From assembly GCA_014804005.1 (NCBI GenBank), contig JAAVAP010000013.1, positions 138,302 through 202,301 of the forward strand: 64,000 nucleotides of DNA, in the 5' to 3' direction. The notes under the pieces were generated by a model. It had not been told where the DNA came from. It made no database searches and was given only the letters and a program-made list of their open reading frames with translations. Both the position numbers and the translations under genes were made by a program. The stretch is from Treponema sp. (lineage in GTDB: Bacteria; Spirochaetota; Spirochaetia; Treponematales; Treponemataceae). Within the stretch, counting starts at the first letter, position 1. The number at the start of each line of letters is the position of its first letter. Positions 4,984-30,456 of the stretch are shown here, in pieces.

Positions 4984-6144
4984 TTGGTTCAGAAAAAAAA
5001 ATATTCTTCGCTTTACGAATTTCTCATAAAGTCCGATGGCGCGATTTCCGTGCTTGTAATCGTGCTTGGATTTTTGTTCGCTACGGCTTTGATCGCGCTC
5101 GTCGGAAGGAATCCTGTCGGAATGTACAAGGCGATTTTTCAGTCGTGCACAGGATTCAATTTGAACAACGGAAAATGGAACATCCGCTATGTGGGCGAAT
5201 GGCTCAACTATTCGATTCCGTTCGTGCTTTGCGGCTACGCGATGGCGTTCGCTTCGCGCACAGGGCTTTTCAACGTGGGAGGCGAGGGGCAGTACATCGT
5301 CGGAATGACTGTGGCGCAATTGGTCGCGCTTTTCTTTCCGCGAATTCCGTTTGTGCATCCTGCGGCGGCGTTGTTGCTCGCACTTCTTTGCGGCGCGGCG
5401 TGGGGCGGAATCGTAGGCTTTCTCAAGGCTCGCTTCGAAGTTTCGGAAGTCGTATCCACGATCATGCTGAATTACATCGCGCTTTATCTTTCGCGGATCG
5501 TAACGCTTGCGATTCCCGGAAGCAACACTTACAAGACGCCGAATTTTCCAGAGACCGCGAGCCTCAAGATTCCTTTTCTTTCGAGGCTTTTCAACAATTC
5601 GAATTTGAACGCTGGAATTTTCATTTGCATTGCCGCGATTTTCGCATATTGGATTATAATGGAAAAAACGACGCTCGGCTTTTCGATGCGCGCGACTGGC
5701 TTCAACAAGGACGCGGCGCGGGCTTCGGGAATTCCCGTCGTTGCGAGCGTCGTTGCGAGCATGGCGATTTCGGGCGCGTTCGCGGCTTTGGGCGGAAGCA
5801 TTGTCGCGCTCGGCTCATTCAGGTACGGCCGCGTCATCACGGGAATGGACAACTACGGATTTACGGGAATGGCTGTTGCGTTGGTCGGAAACTGCACCGC
5901 GCTCGGCACGGCTTTGGCTGGGCTTCTTTTCGGGCTTTTGCAAGCGTCGCAGGCTTTGATGCAGTCGAACAACATTCCGAAGGAAATCGTTTTCATAATC
6001 CAGGGGCTTGTCGTGGTTTTCATCGCGCTGAAGACGGGATTGCGGATTTTCCTTTCCTGGCGACTTCGCAAAAAAGATTCTGCTGTGTCTGAAAACTTGA
6101 GGAAGAAAAATGCTGCCGCGAATTTGGAGAATGAAAAATGCTGA
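4984..6144 (+). CDS. Nucleoside ABC transporter permease, first subunit
   Basis: This is an integral membrane subunit of the BPD_transp_2 (branched amino acid/BMP) permease family. It has about eight to ten hydrophobic segments, a glycine-rich helix pattern (FNVGGEGQYIVG) and the family loop ending in MLNYIALYLSR. I place the start at the TTG at 4984 because a GGGAG site at 4971-4975 sits 8 nt ahead of it. A TTG at 4969 would lie upstream of that site and the GTG at 4978 is too close to it. The Lys-rich C-terminal tail is cytoplasmic. It overlaps the next permease gene by 7 nt, indicating translational coupling. Confidence 0.88.
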   Translation: MVQKKKYSSLYEFLIKSDGAISVLVIVLGFLFATALIALVGRNPVGMYKAIFQSCTGFNLNNGKWNIRYVGEWLNYSIPFVLCGYAMAFASRTGLFNVGGEGQYIVGMTVAQLVALFFPRIPFVHPAAALLLALLCGAAWGGIVGFLKARFEVSEVVSTIMLNYIALYLSRIVTLAIPGSNTYKTPNFPETASLKIPFLSRLFNNSNLNAGIFICIAAIFAYWIIMEKTTLGFSMRATGFNKDAARASGIPVVASVVASMAISGAFAALGGSIVALGSFRYGRVITGMDNYGFTGMAVALVGNCTALGTALAGLLFGLLQASQALMQSNNIPKEIVFIIQGLVVVFIALKTGLRIFLSWRLRKKDSAVSENLRKKNAAANLENEKC

Positions 6145-9245: not shown

Positions 9246-9555
9246 GATGGTTTAGAGTTGATAATGAATAGGGAATAGTTGATGGGGAGTTGTTGGTGAA
9301 CAGTTTGCTGGGTGGCTTTTTGTTACGCTTCGCTCCACAAAAATCAGGCTTTCCGCACTTCGCCGACTAACCGCGGCTCATCCCTTCGTTCGCACTTCGT
9401 GCTACCTACGGGACTGCCTGCGGCAGGTGCTACAATCCTTGCCGCAAAGTTTTCATTAAACAATTATTAACTATTCACTAGCAACTATTAACTATAATTT
9501 CCTTGCCGCAAAGATTGCATCGAACAACTAATAAATATTCACTAATAACCATTAA
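9246..9555. repeat. Gene-free stretch with degenerate repeats
   Basis: No gene is visible. The stretch holds A+T-rich, loosely repeated words built on TAACTATTCACTA and TTAACTAT, and two copies of CCTTGCCGCAAAG about 60 nt apart. Between them lies a G+C-richer block containing CTTCGTTCGCACTTCGTGCT. A related block appears in reverse orientation near 19920-19955 (GAAGTGCGAGCGAGGGGAAG), which suggests a dispersed intergenic element. Confidence 0.45.
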
Positions 9556-10137
9556 CTATTTTTGTATCGAGTCCGTGTCGCGCAGAATCCGCAAGAAAAC
9601 TTCCATGCAGACTCGCGCGTCGTCATAGGCGCGGTGCGCTTCGTTCACTTTGATTTTCATTCCGGCGGCGAGATATTGCAGCGAATGTTTTTTGTTGAGA
9701 GGATACGCCCACCGCGCGGCTTCGAGCGTGTCGATTATCTTGTTCTTGATTTGCGGAAACGAAATCCGCGCCAATTCCTGCTCCAAGAAATTCCAGTCGA
9801 ACATCGCGTTGTGCGCCACCAAAATCGTGCCGCGCGAAAATTCGCAAAAGTCCGCCATCACTTTTTCGATTTCAGGTGCTTCTCGAAGCATTTCGTCTGA
9901 AATCCCCGTGATTTTCGTAATCAGCGCGGGCAGGGGAAACGGGATTTTCACAAAAGAATCGAATTGGGAAATAGTTCCGCCCTTGTCGAATTTGACCGCG
10001 CCTATTTCTATGATGCTGTCGCGCGAAGAGGAAAGGCCTGTGGTTTCCGTGTCGAACGCGCAGAAAACTTCGCCGCTTTCGAAAAGCCTGCGAAGTTTTC
10101 TGTAGTCGCGGAATACGCGCGCGCTATTTTGCGCCAT
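9556..10137 (-). CDS. DEDDh 3'-5' exonuclease, DnaQ/epsilon-like
   Basis: This is a 193-residue exonuclease of the DnaQ (DNA polymerase III epsilon) superfamily. All three Exo motifs are present: D29-T-E-T-T-G-L (ExoI), HNAMFDWNFLEQEL near 107 (ExoII) and HRAYDDARV near 169 (ExoIII, DEDDh type). It could be the stand-alone proofreading subunit or a general DNA/RNA trimming exonuclease; the sequence cannot decide. Its ATG lies inside the 3' end of the upstream phosphohexomutase gene with a 14-nt overlap, so the pair is translationally coupled. Confidence 0.87.
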   Translation of the reverse strand: MAQNSARVFRDYRKLRRLFESGEVFCAFDTETTGLSSSRDSIIEIGAVKFDKGGTISQFDSFVKIPFPLPALITKITGISDEMLREAPEIEKVMADFCEFSRGTILVAHNAMFDWNFLEQELARISFPQIKNKIIDTLEAARWAYPLNKKHSLQYLAAGMKIKVNEAHRAYDDARVCMEVFLRILRDTDSIQK

Positions 10138-12941: not shown

Positions 12942-14459
12942 TTACGCTTTCGTCATCTTTTCCAAAACCGACTTTCCGACCTTCCAATTGTCGCCCGCGC
13001 CCATGGTGACGAAAAGATAGCCGTTCGGGAAATCCTCGCCCGCTTTCTGCGAAAGAATCTTTTCCGCCTCGCGCGCGGCATCCGAAAATTCCTTTTCATA
13101 GCGGACATCGGCGTGATATTTCGAAGCGAGGCTCGCAAGAATCTCTCCGCTTACGTTCGCAGTCCCTTCCGCCTCGCGCGCGCTCGCATAGATTTTGTTT
13201 ATCAGGACTATGTCCGCGCTTTCAAAACTTTTCGCGAAATCCTCGAGCAAAGCCGCCGTGCGCGTGTAAGTGTGGCTCATGAAATCGACGACGATTTTTC
13301 TTCCCGAAAAGAATTCCCTGTATCCCGCGAGCGTCGTGCGGATCGCAGTGGGATGATGGCCGTAGTCGTCAATGAAAATTATCTCGTCGCCGTGCGGATT
13401 CTTCGCGCGCCCCACGATTTCCGAGCGGCGTTTTCCGCCTGAAAATTTTTCCAAGCCGAGCCTTATTTTTTGCGCATAGTCAAGCGGATTCTTTCCGTCC
13501 TCGCGCAAAAGCTCGAACGAAAGCGCGACCGCCGCCGCAGCGTCCAAGATTTCGTGCCTTCCCGGAACGCGCAAAAAGGCATCGCCAAGGCATTCCAAGG
13601 AAAAATTGTTCTTGAGTTCTTCCGCCTTTTTGAATTCGACGCGGAATTCGCCCGAAGCGTTCTCGCCGTAAGGAATGAGAACTATGTCGCTCCGCTTTTC
13701 CCGAACCATTTCGACGCATTGCCTTGCGCCATCGTCGTCCGCGCAGAAAATCAGCTTTCCGCCTTTCGGCAATTTCAAGATGTATTCGACGAAGGCTTCC
13801 TGAATGTCCGCCAAAGTGGGAAAGCAATCCTGATGGTCGCTTTCGACGCTCGTGAGCACGATGATTTTCGGGCAGAACGACATGAAGTGCCGCTTGTATT
13901 CGCAGGTTTCCGCGACGAAATATTTTTTTTGCGAAACGGCATTTTCGGCGGAGTCAAAATAAGGCGAAGTGAAAGTGCATTTTGCGCCGAACGAATCGAC
14001 TACGCTTCCCGCCAAAACCTGGCAAGGCAAGTCCAATTCGCGCAAGATCGTTCCCGCGAGGGCCGTGGTGCTCGTTTTTCCGTGAACGCCGCAGATTCCC
14101 GCGCTGAACGCCGCGGAGGAATACGCGCCCAAAGCCTCGGTGTAAAGCATCGTCGGAATGCCGAGACGGAAAGCCGCCACAAGGTCGGGATTTTTTTCCG
14201 CGTCATACGCCGAAGAGTGAATCACCAATTGAGTTTCGCGCGTGACGTTCTTCTCGCCGAATTCAAGAGGTGCGATTTTGAGCTTTTCCAAAATCTCGTC
14301 GGTATAGAAACGCTCGGAAACGTCGCTTCCGCTGATTTCCGCGCCCGCGCGAACAAGAATTTCCGCGAACGCCGCCATTCCCGTGCCCTTTATTCCGACA
14401 AGGTGGATTTTCGCGCCGCGCAGACTTTTCAAATTTCCAAGGATTGTTTTTTCTGACAT
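12942..14459 (-). CDS. murC: UDP-N-acetylmuramate--L-alanine ligase (MurC)
   Basis: MurC adds L-alanine to UDP-MurNAc in cytoplasmic peptidoglycan synthesis. The 505-residue product starts MSEKTILGNL. It has the nucleotide-binding IHLVGIKGTGMAAFAEIL, the ATP loop GVHGKTSTTA, PGRHEILDAAAAVAL and DDYGHHPTAIRTTL, all Mur-ligase landmarks. GIKGTGM differs from the usual GIGGIGM, so an Mpl-type ligase is a minor alternative. The frame stays open for another 74 codons upstream, but that part crosses the promoter and a repeat array. The ATG at 14459 lies 6 nt after a good -10 box and has no ribosome site, suggesting a leaderless message. Confidence 0.85.
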   Translation of the reverse strand: MSEKTILGNLKSLRGAKIHLVGIKGTGMAAFAEILVRAGAEISGSDVSERFYTDEILEKLKIAPLEFGEKNVTRETQLVIHSSAYDAEKNPDLVAAFRLGIPTMLYTEALGAYSSAAFSAGICGVHGKTSTTALAGTILRELDLPCQVLAGSVVDSFGAKCTFTSPYFDSAENAVSQKKYFVAETCEYKRHFMSFCPKIIVLTSVESDHQDCFPTLADIQEAFVEYILKLPKGGKLIFCADDDGARQCVEMVREKRSDIVLIPYGENASGEFRVEFKKAEELKNNFSLECLGDAFLRVPGRHEILDAAAAVALSFELLREDGKNPLDYAQKIRLGLEKFSGGKRRSEIVGRAKNPHGDEIIFIDDYGHHPTAIRTTLAGYREFFSGRKIVVDFMSHTYTRTAALLEDFAKSFESADIVLINKIYASAREAEGTANVSGEILASLASKYHADVRYEKEFSDAAREAEKILSQKAGEDFPNGYLFVTMGAGDNWKVGKSVLEKMTKA

Positions 14460-14465
14460 CGATTC

Positions 14466-14494
14466 AGTATACACGAAAAAGCGGCTTATTGCAA
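14466..14494 (-). promoter_or_regulatory. murC promoter, apparently leaderless
   Basis: Reading the minus strand: TTGCAA (14494-14489), a 17-nt spacer and TATACT (14471-14466), followed after only 6 nt by the murC ATG. Transcription would start at or within a base or two of the start codon. Confidence 0.65.
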
Positions 14495-14533
14495 GGGATT
14501 GGTCATCCATGTAAACAGAGTGTTTTCTCAAGG

Positions 14534-14689
14534 GAAAAAAAGTTTCATCAAAGTTTCCCACGGCGAAACAAAAAGTTTTGTAGCGTGAAACAGAAAGTTT
14601 TACGCAGTGAAACAAAAAGTTTCTCAAGGCGAAACTAAAAGTTTCCTGGTGTGAAACAAAGTGTTTCATCAAGGGAAACATTGTGTTTC
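14534..14689. repeat. Array of 15-bp palindromes GAAAC-N5-GTTTC at exact 22-bp spacing
   Basis: Six full units begin at 14565, 14587, 14609, 14631, 14653 and 14675, each a 15-nt near-palindrome (for example GAAACAAAAAGTTTC), always 22 nt apart. A half unit (GTTTC) lies in register at 14553-14557, and an out-of-register GAAAAAAAGTTTC at 14534-14546. Linkers differ (TCAAGGC, CTGGTGT), so it is the sites that repeat, not whole sequence. Several half-sites read GTGAAACA or TGTTTCAC. The array lies between the DUF6078 gene and the murC promoter. Confidence 0.85.
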
Positions 14690-14705: not shown

Positions 14706-15128
14706 CTATTCCCAGTCAATCTCTTCGGAGTGGCGGTTGTATGCCGGCGCGGTGTCCACTCCGTTATTGCGGAAAATGTTTTGAACCGCGGATTGCTCGG
14801 CGGGAGTGAGCGGAATTTCCTCGCGAAAGAATCGGTAGTATCGGGTTTTTCCGAAATGGGATATCATGTCCCGTCTTATGCTCCGCGCGCGATCGTAAGG
14901 AATGTCGCGCAGCATGTCTTTTATCCCCCATGCAAGATGGATTTTCTTCATCGGGCGGTAATGCTCGCATTCGCCGCTTTCCTTCGGATAGAGCCGCGGG
15001 TTGAGCGCGCGGACTGACACTGCGTCCGCAGGATAGTGCATTGCATACAACTGCCTGAGGCAGCTCTCGGCTTGCGGGCATGCGCTGTTGAGGCATATCA
15101 TGTAATAGGCGGGAATGTGATCGTCCAT
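14706..15128 (-). CDS. DUF6078-like protein, 140 aa
   Basis: This is a small cytoplasmic protein with a cysteine cluster near its N terminus (YMICLNSACPQAESCLRQLY), then YHYPADAVSV-like and PRLYP segments and a conserved ECEHYRPMKKIHLAWG block. This arrangement resembles the DUF6078 family, which is common in Bacteroidota; the family call is from memory and unverified. The Cys-x4-Cys-x5-Cys could bind metal. No function is known. The ATG has no ribosome site and lies 8 nt after a -10 box. The 22-bp repeat array begins right after its 3' end. Confidence 0.7.
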   Translation of the reverse strand: MDDHIPAYYMICLNSACPQAESCLRQLYAMHYPADAVSVRALNPRLYPKESGECEHYRPMKKIHLAWGIKDMLRDIPYDRARSIRRDMISHFGKTRYYRFFREEIPLTPAEQSAVQNIFRNNGVDTAPAYNRHSEEIDWE

Positions 15129-15136
15129 ATTTGGAC

Positions 15137-15165
15137 AGTGTACAGCAAAAAATGGGGCGCGTCAA
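15137..15165 (-). promoter_or_regulatory. Promoter of the DUF6078-like gene, apparently leaderless
   Basis: Minus strand: TTGACG (15165-15160), a 17-nt spacer and TACACT (15142-15137), then 8 nt to the ATG at 15128. No ribosome site is present. Confidence 0.55.
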
Positions 15166-19751: not shown

Positions 19752-19862
19752 GCGGGAGCGTAGTCCCGCACACCACGGATGCCTAATCCCGCGCAGTGCG
19801 GGAGCATAATCCCGCGCACAACGGATGCGTAATCCCGCACACTGCGGGAGCGCAGTCCCGCT
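19752..19862. repeat. 46-bp tandem repeat, 2.4 copies, each with inverted GCGGGA/TCCCGC
   Basis: Units begin at 19752, 19798 and 19844 (third partial). Each opens with GCGGGA-N6-TCCCGC, a perfect six-base inverted repeat whose N6 differs (GCGTAG, GCATAA, GCGCAG). The second half of each unit is a related CGGATGC-N-TAATCCCGC block, so the basic periodicity is about 23 bp. Confidence 0.75.
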
Positions 19863-24912: not shown

Positions 24913-25767
24913 ATGAACAAGAAATCCATTATCGCATTTGCCTCAATTTTTGCGCTGTGCGTGTTGGCTGTAGCGCGCTCGAATGAGAACAAGACAGCCG
25001 CGCTCATGATTGCGGCAAAGAACAACAACGCCGAGGCAGTGGCGCGGCTCATAAAAATGGGCGCAGACGTGAACGCACAGAACAACGACGGCATGACCGC
25101 GCTGATGTGGGCGGCACACTACAACGCGGCGGACATGGCGAAACTGTTCATTAAAGCGGGCGCGAACGTAAACGCGAAGGGCGGTTGGTACAACGCCACC
25201 GCGCTCATGATTGCGGCAAAGGATTACGCGGCAGACACGGCGAAACTGCTCATCGAGGCAGGCGCACATGTTGACATAACGGACAACGAGGGCAAAACTG
25301 CGCTGATGTGGGCGGCAAGCTACAACGCAGCGGACGTGGCGAAGGTGCTGATAGAGGCCGGCGCGAACGTGAACAGCGGTTGCGACAATGCCACCGCGCT
25401 CATGTATGCGGCAAGACAGAACGCAGCGGACGCGGCAAAACTGCTCATAGAGGCGGGCGCGCATGTTGACGCAAAGAACGATTACGGCGATACCGCGCTG
25501 GTATATGCAGCGTGGAACAATAACGTGAAAACAGTACGGCTTCTGCTCGCGGCAAAGGCAGACGTGAACGCACGGAACAACGACGGCAAGACCGCGCTCA
25601 TGCGGGCGGCATCCAATCGCACTGCGGATACGGCGAAGGCCCTCATCGAAGCGGGTGCGGACGTGAACGCAACGGACAACAACGGCAAGACCGCGCTCAT
25701 GGTGGCGAAAGCGTGCGACGCAAAAGACGTGATTGCGCTGCTCAAGGCCGCCGGCGCGAAAGAGTAA
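24913..25767 (+). CDS. Exported ankyrin-repeat protein 1
   Basis: This is the first of a tandem family. The 284-residue product has an N-terminal signal sequence (MNKKSIIAFASIFALCVLAV) without a clean lipobox, then eight ankyrin repeats of about 33 residues with the consensus TALMxAAxxNAADxAKLLIEAGADVNAKxxxG. The last repeat is the short cap ending LLKAAGAKE shared by the family. Ankyrin stacks mediate protein binding, here probably in the periplasm. The ribosome site is weak. The 21 nt at 25774-25794 after the stop match those after ank 5, so the 3' flank was duplicated with the gene. Confidence 0.87.
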   Translation: MNKKSIIAFASIFALCVLAVARSNENKTAALMIAAKNNNAEAVARLIKMGADVNAQNNDGMTALMWAAHYNAADMAKLFIKAGANVNAKGGWYNATALMIAAKDYAADTAKLLIEAGAHVDITDNEGKTALMWAASYNAADVAKVLIEAGANVNSGCDNATALMYAARQNAADAAKLLIEAGAHVDAKNDYGDTALVYAAWNNNVKTVRLLLAAKADVNARNNDGKTALMRAASNRTADTAKALIEAGADVNATDNNGKTALMVAKACDAKDVIALLKAAGAKE

Positions 25768-25800
25768 ACGGGAGCGCACATTAAAGAAAACCGTATGAAA

Positions 25801-26227
25801 TTTCCTTCCCTCCAATTGTCGGGAATGCATCAACCGCCGGAAATTGTCGCAATGCAATGTGTTGCTTCCGAGTTTTCTTCGAAAACTCGCAAATGCTGGT
25901 GCGACAAGGCTTTGGAACGAGAGGAAATTCGTTCCCGCGAAGTTGCGAGAACAACAAAACCGCCGGAAATTCCTTCTCGCCAAACAGCGGGAAGGAATTT
26001 GGTACGCCAAATTCCTTCCCGACAAACTGCGTGAACGAATTTGGCGCGCAAGATTCATCCCCGACAAACTGCGGCAACGAATTTGTTGCGGAAATTCCTT
26101 CCCGCAAATCGGCGGCAACGAATTTGGTGCTCAAGATTCCCTCCCGCAAAACTGCGTGAACGAATTTTGTGCGCAAGATTCATTCTCGCCAAACTGCGGC
26201 TACAAATTTGGTACGCAAAATTCGTCC
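25801..26227. repeat. 42-bp tandem repeat array, about ten units
   Basis: Units are in register at 25801, 25843, 25885, 25927, 25969, 26011, 26053, 26094, 26136, 26178 and a partial one at 26220. All steps are 42 nt except one of 41. The consensus runs ATTCCTTCCCGCCAAACTGC, then GTGAACGAATTTGGTGCGCAAG. The left three units are strongly eroded; the right seven are clear. There are no spacers, so it is not a CRISPR array. Alternate units favour GTGAACG or GGCAACG at the same place. Confidence 0.85.
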
Positions 26228-26240
26228 ATGCGGCCACGCT

Positions 26241-26270
26241 TTGACAATCAGCCGCCGCATGCGCTATAAT
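26241..26270 (+). promoter_or_regulatory. Consensus promoter for ankyrin gene 2
   Basis: A perfect TTGACA (26241-26246), an 18-nt spacer and a perfect TATAAT (26265-26270) lie 32 nt before the start at 26303. It probably drives the whole ank 2-5 group, whose genes are spaced by 9-14 nt. Confidence 0.75.
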
Positions 26271-26302
26271 ATCGCAGAGAGAATGACATCAAGGAGCAAT
26301 GT

Positions 26303-28183
26303 ATGAACATGAAGAAAGCATTTATCACCATTACCGCGCTCGCGATGTGCGCGATGGCAGTGTCGTGCTCAAAAGAGAGCAGAACAGCCGCCCTCATGAA
26401 GGCCGTGAAAAACAATGACGCTTTCAAAGCGCGGTGGCTCATACGGGCAAGTGCAGACGTAAACACAAAAGACGATGAGGGCATAACCGCGCTCATGTAT
26501 GCGACGACGAATAACGCTACAGACGTTGCAAAACTGCTCATGCAAGCCGGCGCGGACGTGAACGCGAAAGACTCTAAAGGCATGACAGCACTGATGTATG
26601 CGGCAGAAAAAAATGCGGAAGATATTGCACGACTGCTCGTGAATGTCGGCGCGGACGTGAACACAAAAGACAACTACGGGTGGACTGCGCTGATGTTCGC
26701 GGCCCGTAACAACGCGGCTGACATTGCTGAACTGCTCATCGAATCCGGTGCGGATGTGAATGCAAAAGACAACTACGAGTGGGTCGCGCTCATGCATGCG
26801 TTGCGTGAGAAAGCGATCGATGTGGCAAGTCTGCTCATAGATGCTGGCACGTACTTGGACAAGAAAAGCTATGATGATATGAAAGATATGTTGTATGATG
26901 CGGCGGATAGCAACGCGGCAGACCTTGTGAAACTTCTCATCGAAGCGGGCGCGAATGTGAACGCAAAGACCAACAACGGCTGGACTGCGCTGATTAGCGC
27001 GGCTCGTAGCAACGCGGCAGATGTTGTGAAACTGCTCATAGATGCTGGAGCGGACGTGAACGCAACGATAAAATACGTGTCCCGCGGTGAGGCGACACCG
27101 CTTATGTATGCGGCGCATAACAATTCTGCTGGCGTTGCGAAACTTCTCATCGAGGCGGGCGCAGACGTGAACACAAATGTTCCTCCCCTTGGCTTTTCCG
27201 CACTCATAGAAGCGGCGGAAAATAATTCGGCGGACGTTGCGAAACTTCTCATCGAAGCGGGCGCTGATGTGAACGCAAGGGATTATGCATACATAACCGC
27301 GCTCATGTATGCGGCGAATAATAATTCTACTGGCGTTGCAAAACTTCTCATAGAAGCTGGCGCGGATGTGGAAGCGAAGAACAAATATGGCAAGACCGCC
27401 CTCATGTACGCAACAGAAAAGACCGCGAAATACATTGCAAGTATACTCATCGAAGCCGGCGCGGACATGGACGCAAGGGACGCTTACGACAAGACAGCAC
27501 TGATGTACGCAGCAGAAAATAATGCGAAAGACATTGCACGGCTTCTCATCGAATCTGGGGCGAACGTAGACACAGGGGAGCAAGACGGCAATACCGCGCT
27601 GATGCTCGCGGCTCGTAACGACAAGGTGGACATTGCCGAACTTCTTATCGAATCAGGCGTGGATGTGAACGCGACGAATTTTTCTGGCACGACTGCGCTC
27701 ATGTATGCGGCATCTTCCAACGCCGTGGGCACGGCGAGATTGCTCATAAAGGCAGGCGCAGACGTGAACGCAAAGGACAAATTTGCAGAGACTGCCCTCA
27801 TGTATGCGGCGGATAATGACTTTACGGACATGGCGGAACTGCTTATTGAAGCCGGCGCTAACGTGGACGCGCAGGACGAAGATGGTCGGACAGCCCTCAT
27901 GTATGCGGTGGCGGAGAAGAATTTGTCAGACTCGTATGATGCAGGCGTTGCGAGGCTGCTCATACAAGCTGGCGCGGACGTGAACGCACGGAACGATTAC
28001 GGCGGAACCGCGCTCATGTATGCGGCAAGGAGAAACGGCTCGTATGAAGCAAAACTGCTTATCGAGGCTGGCGCGGATGTGAACGCGAAAAACCAGTTCG
28101 GCGAGACCGCGCTCATGCTTGCAGAAGAACACGACGCGGCAGAAGTAATCGCATTGCTCAAATCCGCCGGCGCGAAAGAATAA
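26303..28183 (+). CDS. Ankyrin-repeat lipoprotein 2 (18 repeats)
   Basis: This is the largest family member: 626 residues with a lipoprotein signal (MNMKKAFITITALAMCAMAVSC, Cys at 22) and 18 tandem ankyrin repeats filling the rest of the protein. The repeats are near-uniform (TALMYAAxNNAxDIAxLLIEAGADVNAK) with an insertion in repeat 7 and a longer repeat 16, and end in the LLKSAGAKE cap. An AAGGAG site precedes the ATG. Its last 93 nt plus leader are identical to those of ank 4, a sign of recent duplication or gene conversion. It is likely a surface or periplasmic binding protein; the ligand is unknown. Confidence 0.9.
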   Translation: MNMKKAFITITALAMCAMAVSCSKESRTAALMKAVKNNDAFKARWLIRASADVNTKDDEGITALMYATTNNATDVAKLLMQAGADVNAKDSKGMTALMYAAEKNAEDIARLLVNVGADVNTKDNYGWTALMFAARNNAADIAELLIESGADVNAKDNYEWVALMHALREKAIDVASLLIDAGTYLDKKSYDDMKDMLYDAADSNAADLVKLLIEAGANVNAKTNNGWTALISAARSNAADVVKLLIDAGADVNATIKYVSRGEATPLMYAAHNNSAGVAKLLIEAGADVNTNVPPLGFSALIEAAENNSADVAKLLIEAGADVNARDYAYITALMYAANNNSTGVAKLLIEAGADVEAKNKYGKTALMYATEKTAKYIASILIEAGADMDARDAYDKTALMYAAENNAKDIARLLIESGANVDTGEQDGNTALMLAARNDKVDIAELLIESGVDVNATNFSGTTALMYAASSNAVGTARLLIKAGADVNAKDKFAETALMYAADNDFTDMAELLIEAGANVDAQDEDGRTALMYAVAEKNLSDSYDAGVARLLIQAGADVNARNDYGGTALMYAARRNGSYEAKLLIEAGADVNAKNQFGETALMLAEEHDAAEVIALLKSAGAKE

Positions 28184-28197
28184 ACTTGGAGGAAAAT

Positions 28198-29088
28198 ATG
28201 ACAATGAAGAAAGCATTTATCGCCATTTCTGCGCTCGCGCTGTGCGCGGCGTTCGTGTCCTGCAAGAAAGCGGACAAGACAGCCGCGCTCATGCAAAGCG
28301 CGGGAGCGAATGAATACGCACTTAGAGAAGCCGTGAAGAACGGCGACATTTTCGTAGTGCGGCAGCTCATCCTAGCAGGCACAGACGTGAACGCAAAGAG
28401 CGATGACGGCACGACAGCACTGATATTTGCGGCAAAGAACGGCTCGACGGATGTGGCGAGACTGCTCATCGAGGCGGGCGCGGACGTGAACGCAGGGAAT
28501 CAGCGCGGCGAGACTGCGCTGATGTTTGCGGCGCTGAAGAACGCGTCAGGCGTAGCCAAATCGCTCATAGAGGCAGGCGTGGACGTGAACGCTACGAACA
28601 ATAACGGCGATACCGCGCTGATGTGGGTGGCTTTTGAGAATGCCGCGGATGTGGCGCGGCTTCTTCTCGCGGCGAATGCGGACGTGAACGCAAAGGAAGT
28701 TTACAGCGTGACGGCACTGATGCTTGCGGCGTATCACAACGCGCCGGACGTTGCGAAACTGCTCATAAATGCGGGCGCGGACATACGCGCGCGGAACAGA
28801 TTCGGCGGCTGGAACGCGCTCGTATATGCGGCATACCACAATTCGCCGGACGTTGCGAGGCTGCTCATCAAAGCGGGCGCGGACGTGAACGCAAAGGACT
28901 GCTTCGACAAGACTACGCTTATGATTGCGGCGGAGAAAAACGCAATTGATGTGGCGGACGCGCTCTTGGAAGCGGGCGCGGACATAAACGCCAAGGACGA
29001 TGATGGCAGAACCGCGCTCATGTGGGCGGAAGAACGCAAAGCGGCGGACGTTGCCGCGCTGCTCAAAGCCGCCGGCGCAAAGGAATAA
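28198..29088 (+). CDS. Ankyrin-repeat lipoprotein 3
   Basis: The product has 296 residues, a lipoprotein signal ending AAFVSC and eight ankyrin repeats finishing with the family cap LLKAAGAKE. The first repeat is preceded by an odd SAGANEYALREAVKNGD stretch in which a cap-like SAGA lies at the start, as if a repeat end had been copied there. GGAGG 5 nt upstream supports the ATG at 28198. It starts 14 nt after ank 2 and is followed 13 nt later by ank 4, so it lies inside one operon. Confidence 0.88.
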   Translation: MTMKKAFIAISALALCAAFVSCKKADKTAALMQSAGANEYALREAVKNGDIFVVRQLILAGTDVNAKSDDGTTALIFAAKNGSTDVARLLIEAGADVNAGNQRGETALMFAALKNASGVAKSLIEAGVDVNATNNNGDTALMWVAFENAADVARLLLAANADVNAKEVYSVTALMLAAYHNAPDVAKLLINAGADIRARNRFGGWNALVYAAYHNSPDVARLLIKAGADVNAKDCFDKTTLMIAAEKNAIDVADALLEAGADINAKDDDGRTALMWAEERKAADVAALLKAAGAKE

Positions 29089-29101
29089 ACGGGAGGAAGC
29101 C

Positions 29102-29584
29102 ATGACCATGAAAAGCAAAGCCATTATCGCAATTTCCGCGCTCGCGGCGTTCGCGAATGTCGGCTGCGTGAGCAAAAACAGCGAGGCGGCAGAGAAAGAA
29201 GCAAAGGAACAGGAGCTGAGGCTCACCGTGCAGTTGGACGAAGACATCGAAGAAACGCGAAGGCTCATCAAAGCGGGCGCAGACGTGAACGCACAGACCA
29301 AGTACGGCTATACTGCGCTGATGTACGCAGCGGGGTACAATGCCTCATACACCGCGCAGCTCATCAAAGCGAATGCGGATGTGAACGTGAAGGACGATGC
29401 CGGTCATACCGCACTCATGTATGCGGCAGAGCGGGATGCGGAAGATGTCGTCGAACTGCTCATTGCCGCCGGCGCGGACGTAAGCGCAAAGAACGAAGAC
29501 GGCAAAACTGCGCTCATGCTTGCAGAAGAACACGACGCGGCAGAAGTAATCGCATTGCTCAAATCCGCCGGCGCGAAAGAATAA
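29102..29584 (+). CDS. Short ankyrin-repeat lipoprotein 4
   Basis: At 160 residues this is the smallest intact member. It has a lipoprotein signal ending FANVGC, a charged spacer (AAEKEAKEQELR), three ankyrin repeats plus the cap LLKSAGAKE. Repeat 2 is one residue short (ASYTAQLIKANAD). The 3' end from 29510 is identical to that of ank 2. It may be an internally deleted version of a longer gene. The GGGAGG site sits before the ATG. Confidence 0.85.
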   Translation: MTMKSKAIIAISALAAFANVGCVSKNSEAAEKEAKEQELRLTVQLDEDIEETRRLIKAGADVNAQTKYGYTALMYAAGYNASYTAQLIKANADVNVKDDAGHTALMYAAERDAEDVVELLIAAGADVSAKNEDGKTALMLAEEHDAAEVIALLKSAGAKE

Positions 29585-29598
29585 ACTTGGAGGAAAAT

Positions 29599-30456
29599 AT
29601 GAACATGAAGAAGAAAGCCATTATCGCCATCGCCGCGCTGTGCATGGTAATGGCATGCGCGTATGCGGACGCAAAGTCGGACGCGCTCATAGAAGCAGCG
29701 AAAAACAACGACACCGCAGAAGTGGCGCGGCTCATACAAGCGGGCGCAGATTTGAACGCAACGGACGACTACGGCAAGACCGCGCTCATGCGGGCGGCGT
29801 ATAGGAACGCGGTAGACGCGGCGAGACTGCTCATTGAGTCGGGCGCGGATGTAAATGCAAAGGACGATCACGGCTTAACCGTGCTCATACATGCGTCAGT
29901 AAACAATGCGGTAGACGCGGCAAGACTGCTCATACAGGCCGGCGCGGACGTGAACGCACGGGAAGACGATGACGGCATGACTGCTCTCATGAGTGCAGTC
30001 AATGGCACGGCAGACATGGCGGAACTGCTCATCGAGACTGGCGCAGACGTGAACGCAAAGGACAATGAAGGCGCGACCGCACTCATATTTGCGGCATCGC
30101 TCAATGCCGCAGACATGGCACGACTACTCATAGCGGCTGGCGCGGACGTGAACGAAAAGGACAACGACGGCAAGACCGCGCTGATATGGGCGGCATGGCA
30201 TAACGCAGCGGACGTTGCCAAACTGCTCATTCAGGCGGGCGCGGACGTGAACGCACGGGAAGACATTGACGGCATAACCGCGCTCATGGCTGCAGCAGCG
30301 GACAACGCGGCAGACACGGCGAAACTGCTCATACAAGCTGGCGCGGACATGAACACACGGGAGAACATGTACGACATGACCGCGCTCATGATTGCAAAAG
30401 AACGCGACGCGAAAGACGTGATAGCGCTGCTCGAGGCGGTGGGGGCGGAAGAGTAG
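29599..30456 (+). CDS. Exported ankyrin-repeat protein 5
   Basis: The product is 285 residues with a signal sequence (MNMKKKAIIAIAALCMVMACAYADA) that could be cut as a lipoprotein at Cys or by signal peptidase I after AYADA, followed by eight ankyrin repeats. The C-terminal cap is changed to LLEAVGAEE. The leader, including GGAGG, is identical to that of ank 3. Downstream lies a 21-nt match to the ank 1 flank and then a dead sixth copy. Confidence 0.88.
   Translation: MNMKKKAIIAIAALCMVMACAYADAKSDALIEAAKNNDTAEVARLIQAGADLNATDDYGKTALMRAAYRNAVDAARLLIESGADVNAKDDHGLTVLIHASVNNAVDAARLLIQAGADVNAREDDDGMTALMSAVNGTADMAELLIETGADVNAKDNEGATALIFAASLNAADMARLLIAAGADVNEKDNDGKTALIWAAWHNAADVAKLLIQAGADVNAREDIDGITALMAAAADNAADTAKLLIQAGADMNTRENMYDMTALMIAKERDAKDVIALLEAVGAEE

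Follow-up and report, generated by a model that had tools for sequence, protein, structure and literature searches.

The window, a stretch of 64,000 nucleotides from a Treponema sp. genome, carries an array of short palindromes between murC and a gene of the DUF6078 family (Table 1). The six palindromes start at 14565, 14587, 14609, 14631, 14653 and 14675, a step of exactly 22 bp. Their arms are perfect in four of the six units, with units 1 and 2 closing with GTTTT, and both the spacers and the 7-bp linkers differ from unit to unit. An earlier note on this DNA had described a strict 22-bp register, a half-site standing in that register and variable linkers and spacers, and all three were confirmed; the window has a run of 6 units at a 22-bp step, and the longest run in any of 100 first-order Markov simulations of the same 64 kb was 1. 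The array edge lies 16 bp from the stop codon of the DUF6078 gene. On the other side, the murC frame stays open through the array (14460-14681, minus strand) to an ATG at 14681, so that an automatic annotation might wrongly lengthen murC by 74 residues at its N-terminus; this longer ORF start is a mere read-through of the array.

Table 1 Features of the palindrome array and its neighbouring genes, in window positions
Feature	Position	Strand	Basis
Array of six GAAAC-N5-GTTTC(T) palindromes, starts at 22-bp intervals	14565..14689		
Half-site GTTTC in the 22-bp register, its unit having a decayed left arm	14553..14557		
Extra GTTTC, 11 bp out of register, degenerate murC-side edge of the array	14542..14546		
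DUF6078 gene, 140 aa, PF19555 (E 1.8e-39), proposed cognate partner	14706..15128	-	
Promoter-like site of the DUF6078 gene, TTGACG-17-TACACT	15137..15165	-	consensus match only
Promoter-like site of murC, TTGCAA-17-TATACT, in the array-murC interval	14466..14494	-	consensus match only
murC, Mur ligase domains, chance neighbour	12942..14459	-	

Distribution of the arrays and their pairing with DUF6078

The earlier note had proposed a search for units at 22-bp steps in the whole genome and in related treponemes. This search found four more arrays of the same step in the source genome, on contigs C1, C16, C20 and C30 and with different linkers and spacers (the reversed pattern, used as a control, gave 0 arrays), and GAAAC unit pairs in 11 of 196 Treponema genomes. 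Identical arrays at random positions or a drifting step had been named as findings that would speak against the proposal; the arrays are scattered and non-identical, and the step and the partner gene are kept. Among the matches listed in a scan of GTDB species genomes, most lay on Bacteroides and Prevotella contigs, with some in Treponema and one in Bacillota, and the 22 step and the arms were kept, with differing linkers, in 118 of the loci listed. Solo arrays repeat the motif of the gene-linked array in the same genome and were intergenic in 103 of 105 cases, and their gene context (14 convergent, 14 divergent and 40 co-directional) showed no clear preference for promoters, terminators or orientation.

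Within Treponema, DUF6078 was present in 14 of the 196 genomes and GAAAC arrays in 11, with both in 8 (Fisher p ~1e-8, which, like the other p values given here, overstates independence because the control genomes and the genes are mutually related). At all 14 Treponema DUF6078 places with sequence beyond the stop codon, an array of 22-bp step was found there, in some cases degenerate; those downstream of DUF6078 in G085 and G145 have AAAAC/GTTTT arms. DUF6078 genes also occur in 67 of 151 Bacteroidaceae genomes, one to five in each. A motif-blind autocorrelation test was applied to 117 DUF6078 genes of Treponema and Bacteroidota, with the 97% control level as threshold. The signal exceeded this level in 78 of 115 downstream flanks, with 75 at a lag of 21-23 or 44, and in 24 of 702 control windows, where the lags were scattered. 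For the Bacteroidaceae genes that had been found by protein alone, the same test gave an array signal downstream of 60 of 93 and on either side of 69 of 93, and no detectable array at 24 of 93, which counts against the pairing.

At least five in-register arms were present downstream of 73 of the 117 genes, upstream of 7 and in none of the 117 shuffled flanks. Among 30 further DUF6078 genes, at least five arms were found downstream of 13 and upstream of 3, control windows never having more than 4, and several of these genes had no detectable array. Five in-register arms served as the cut-off, four being too lenient since a control window reached that number at 6 of the 30 loci.

Of 34 array-bearing genomes drawn from the matches listed, 26 carry DUF6078, often in several copies. 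DUF6078 was not found in the other 8, which include Evansella vedderi and some incomplete MAGs, nor in the array-bearing Treponema genomes G060, G159 and G174. Some array genomes without the gene are incomplete assemblies; decayed systems would look alike. The Paraprevotella MAG G299 (locus L043) has 60 GAAAC-type pair matches (e.g. GAAACACCCAGTTTCAGAGCCT) and DUF6078 was not found in it; either these are orphan arrays or the assembly is incomplete. Evansella vedderi (L053) belongs to Bacillota, and its short GAAAC array thus lies beyond the two phyla Bacteroidota and Spirochaetota. As to the gene itself, a 424-kb plasmid of Treponema saccharophilum (NZ_AP025289.1) has two DUF6078 places, from 1934, and the broken DUF6078 copies (G260, G324, G342, G217:C7, G286:C12, G170 and G188:C10) are mostly C-terminal pieces, that is, the array-side end.

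The DUF6078 protein and the arms of its arrays

The protein encoded in the window matched PF19555 with 135.8 bits (cut-off 27) over profile positions 9-145 of 145. PF19555 was the sole consistent Pfam match of the DUF6078 members, and Y1/HUH was not detected in them. Cysteines 12, 17 and 23 are present in 114 of 114 sequences and Cys54 in 97%, and these four near-invariant residues likely form a metal site. Two AlphaFold models agree on a C-terminal region of strand, three helices and strand (pLDDT mostly >90), with an uncertain N-terminal part. A fold search of PDB and BFVD gave no match above noise. The noise-level matches included the helix-turn-helix entries 3bs3 (Z 4.2 over 59 residues) and 4yba (Z 3.8 over 61), tied with unrelated rows, and the IS200/IS605 transposases 2ec2 (E 0.6) and 2xma (Z 2.3); a sequence-based PDB search gave no match. 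Because the fold matches are at noise level, the proposal that DUF6078 may bind DNA is built on the genomic pairing and not on the fold.

The 3′ flanks of DUF6078 genes in Bacteroidaceae often hold palindromes of about 22-bp step with different arms, for example GTGCCA/TGGCAC, GATAC/GTATC, AGTAC/GTACT, TTACC/GGTAA and TGCCA/TGGCA. The arm sequence varies by DUF6078 clade (GAAAC, AGTAC, CGGAC, TGCCA and others), with the step constant at 21-23 bp. Of the 151 Bacteroidaceae genomes, 14 have GTACT-type arrays, and these 14 include 9 of the 11 in which DUF6078 has GTACT arms (Fisher p ~1e-9); one Bacteroidaceae genome has 66 GTACT-type array matches. A tree was built from 114 DUF6078 proteins, limited by its small number of columns and its related rows; the GAAAC and AGTAC types require 2 changes on it versus 11.5 when shuffled, and none of 500 shuffles was as low. 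The Treponema proteins form one supported group within the GAAAC-type Bacteroides proteins on this tree, and this nesting points to a transfer of DUF6078 between phyla, from Bacteroidota to Treponema. The residues that separate GAAAC-type from AGTAC-type proteins (95, 100, 101 and others) were set aside as candidate determinants, being inseparable from clade effects.

Change and probable dispersal of the arrays

Sister species differ by whole units in the length of their arrays. The window array has changed between G000 and G127 by a single complete 22-bp unit, and a linker has been replaced, in surroundings that are about 95% identical, and after DUF6078 in G061 and G078 there are 4 versus 9 units at a locus that is 97% identical. 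One block of some 146 bp that contains an array shows 86% identity between G000:C1 and G061:C48 (also G078:C10), at sites whose flanks are 46-50% alike, a level equal to that of unrelated DNA, and whose neighbouring genes differ. The solo array on C20 opens with the last codons of DUF6078 fused to other DNA. This remnant is a single case, since an HMM search of 151 array flanks found no convincing DUF6078 remnants beyond the known genes. By sequence comparison, a dispersal of arrays is supported in these two cases, the moved block and the C20 remnant.

G000 and G127 are no longer homologous beyond a point about 76 bp upstream of where DUF6078 starts (~15204), and G061 and G078 likewise diverge shortly upstream of DUF6078; the break at ~15204 is a possible module edge. 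Beside the C20 array, a segment of L212 (~5072-5200) that matches many places in G078, G127 and G061 looks like an ankyrin-repeat fragment. A search of IMG/VR with one Bacteroides protein found no viral DUF6078. Six DUF6078 matches were seen in unannotated faecal 'phage' contigs, which may be bacterial DNA.

A proposed two-part module and competing explanations

Given the pairing of gene and array, we think it likely that the two form a single module, with the array as its DNA half and DUF6078 as its protein half, binding and mobility both being properties that we infer. A DUF6078 dimer would occupy each palindrome in its double-stranded form, with dimers side by side every two helical turns along the array, and would contact the DNA through its C-terminal helical region and the four-cysteine metal site. 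The specificity of the protein and the arms of its own array would change together. Arrays, whether accompanied by the gene or alone, would disperse as short extragenic elements much as REP/RAYT do, with no Y1 transposase; DUF6078 might be the mover of the arrays, or a binder only (autoregulation, DNA bridging). A bolder proposal, to which we give somewhat less than an even chance, is that this is a new protein-repeat class, in which a non-HUH four-cysteine protein, DUF6078, co-diversifies with its arrays and disperses them within genomes and between Bacteroidota and Spirochaetota. The idea of the earlier note, a protein-binding multi-site array adjoining DUF6078 whose arms and two-turn step are under selection, is retained here in spirit, stripped of its links to murC and to ParB.

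The closest known systems are REP sequences with TnpA-REP/RAYT, in which extragenic palindromes are dispersed, have clustered copies and diverge together with the protein of a linked gene (PMC8266576, PMC3733652, PMC3116915). Like these, the DUF6078 arrays are dispersed intergenically, have a cognate copy linked to the gene and diverge in their arms with the protein. They differ in the strict 22-bp tandem step, in strand-symmetric arms and in having no constant GTAG-like tag by the palindromes, the 7-bp linkers being variable. Y1_Tnp (PF01797) was not found in five of eight array genomes (the source genome G000, and G127, G109, G011 and G180, assemblies 82-94% complete), the E. coli control being positive. 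DUF6078 and its arrays may therefore work like a REP system but, because the Y1 transposase is missing in these five genomes and there is no GTAG-like tag, would not belong to REP/RAYT.

The literature searches found no paper naming DUF6078 and nothing relevant on palindrome arrays of 22-bp step, and the proposed two-part, probably mobile system is undescribed in the literature searched. If the pairing is as proposed, a protein family of unknown function gains a concrete, testable candidate DNA partner, and dozens of natural protein-target pairs become a source for reading a recognition code. It also suggests a REP-like system lacking the HUH transposase to which known REP sequences are attributed, and one that is common in gut Bacteroides and Prevotella.

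Several other explanations were weighed. DUF6078 could be an ordinary autoregulator or DNA-bridging protein whose arrays are its operators and are not moved by it. We give this an appreciable minority chance, since the two-helical-turn step is conserved, as in cooperative helix-turn-helix operators with their palindromes at two-turn steps, a promoter-like site lies near the DUF6078 start, and the protein has a weak helix-turn-helix resemblance. The arrays, however, follow the gene at its 3′ end and do not cover the promoter, the solo copies adjoin unrelated genes without promoter preference, and the block at unrelated sites and the 5′-truncated gene remnant point to dispersal. It is unlikely, in our judgement, that the arrays act as RNA, forming 3′-UTR hairpins of the DUF6078 transcript (for stability, for termination, or as an RNA ligand of the protein like the repeats of type III toxin-antitoxin systems), although most arrays stand directly 3′ of the gene and the window array has a strong predicted fold as RNA (z -5.9). 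In 73 sense-orientation units, arm changes that keep G-U pairing and those that break it were equal, 12 versus 12 (small numbers), and this lack of a wobble bias favours recognition of double-stranded DNA over RNA; the intergenic position of the solo arrays and their want of a clear orientation preference also speak against RNA. Type III toxin-antitoxin systems carry their repeats upstream of the toxin gene and on its strand. DUF6078 resembles these ToxIN-like systems in being a small protein gene beside a series of short repeats, but its arrays lie predominantly downstream, are palindromic and strand-symmetric and have solo genomic copies, and PADLOC gave no convincing match.

The earlier note's reading of the array as an operator for murC or as a loading site for ParB/Noc has become very improbable. 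In its favour, murC adjoins the array in G000 and G127, and the parS half-sites GTGAAACA/TGTTTCAC resemble those of the array. In G061 and G078, however, the same DUF6078-array unit stands beside a ribose-phosphate pyrophosphokinase-like gene, and since the neighbour on this side varies between lineages, the position of murC next to the array is incidental; murC also has a promoter-like site of its own. As for ParB, the 16-bp parS TGTTTCACGTGAAACA is absent from the window array and present on contig C14, with a one-mismatch copy on another contig, the outward dyad of the array has a centre of 7 bp versus 4 bp in parS, and many array families, including arrays of relatives, use unrelated arms. 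An ordinary slippage minisatellite with no protein partner would explain that the unit number varies between sister species, yet it is scarcely credible in view of arms that are kept as linkers vary, one step shared by two phyla with different arms, and a partner-specific co-occurrence in which 22-bp arrays were met again at DUF6078 in the 30 further genes. A CRISPR-like array was rejected by reasoning, the 5- and 7-bp spacers being too short.

Other repeats were noted in the window apart from the array beside DUF6078. A second palindrome array, with a 23-bp step and the form GCGGGA-N6-TCCCGC, lies at 19752-19861, with a further copy at C18:90415; at the matching site in G127, upstream of the same gene (20016), there is a GAAAC array instead. 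A 64-bp AT-rich unit is tandemly duplicated at 9436-9559, and 42-bp tandem repeats (25964-26227) lie within a cluster of ankyrin-type repeats at 25082-30411 with a period of about 99 bp.
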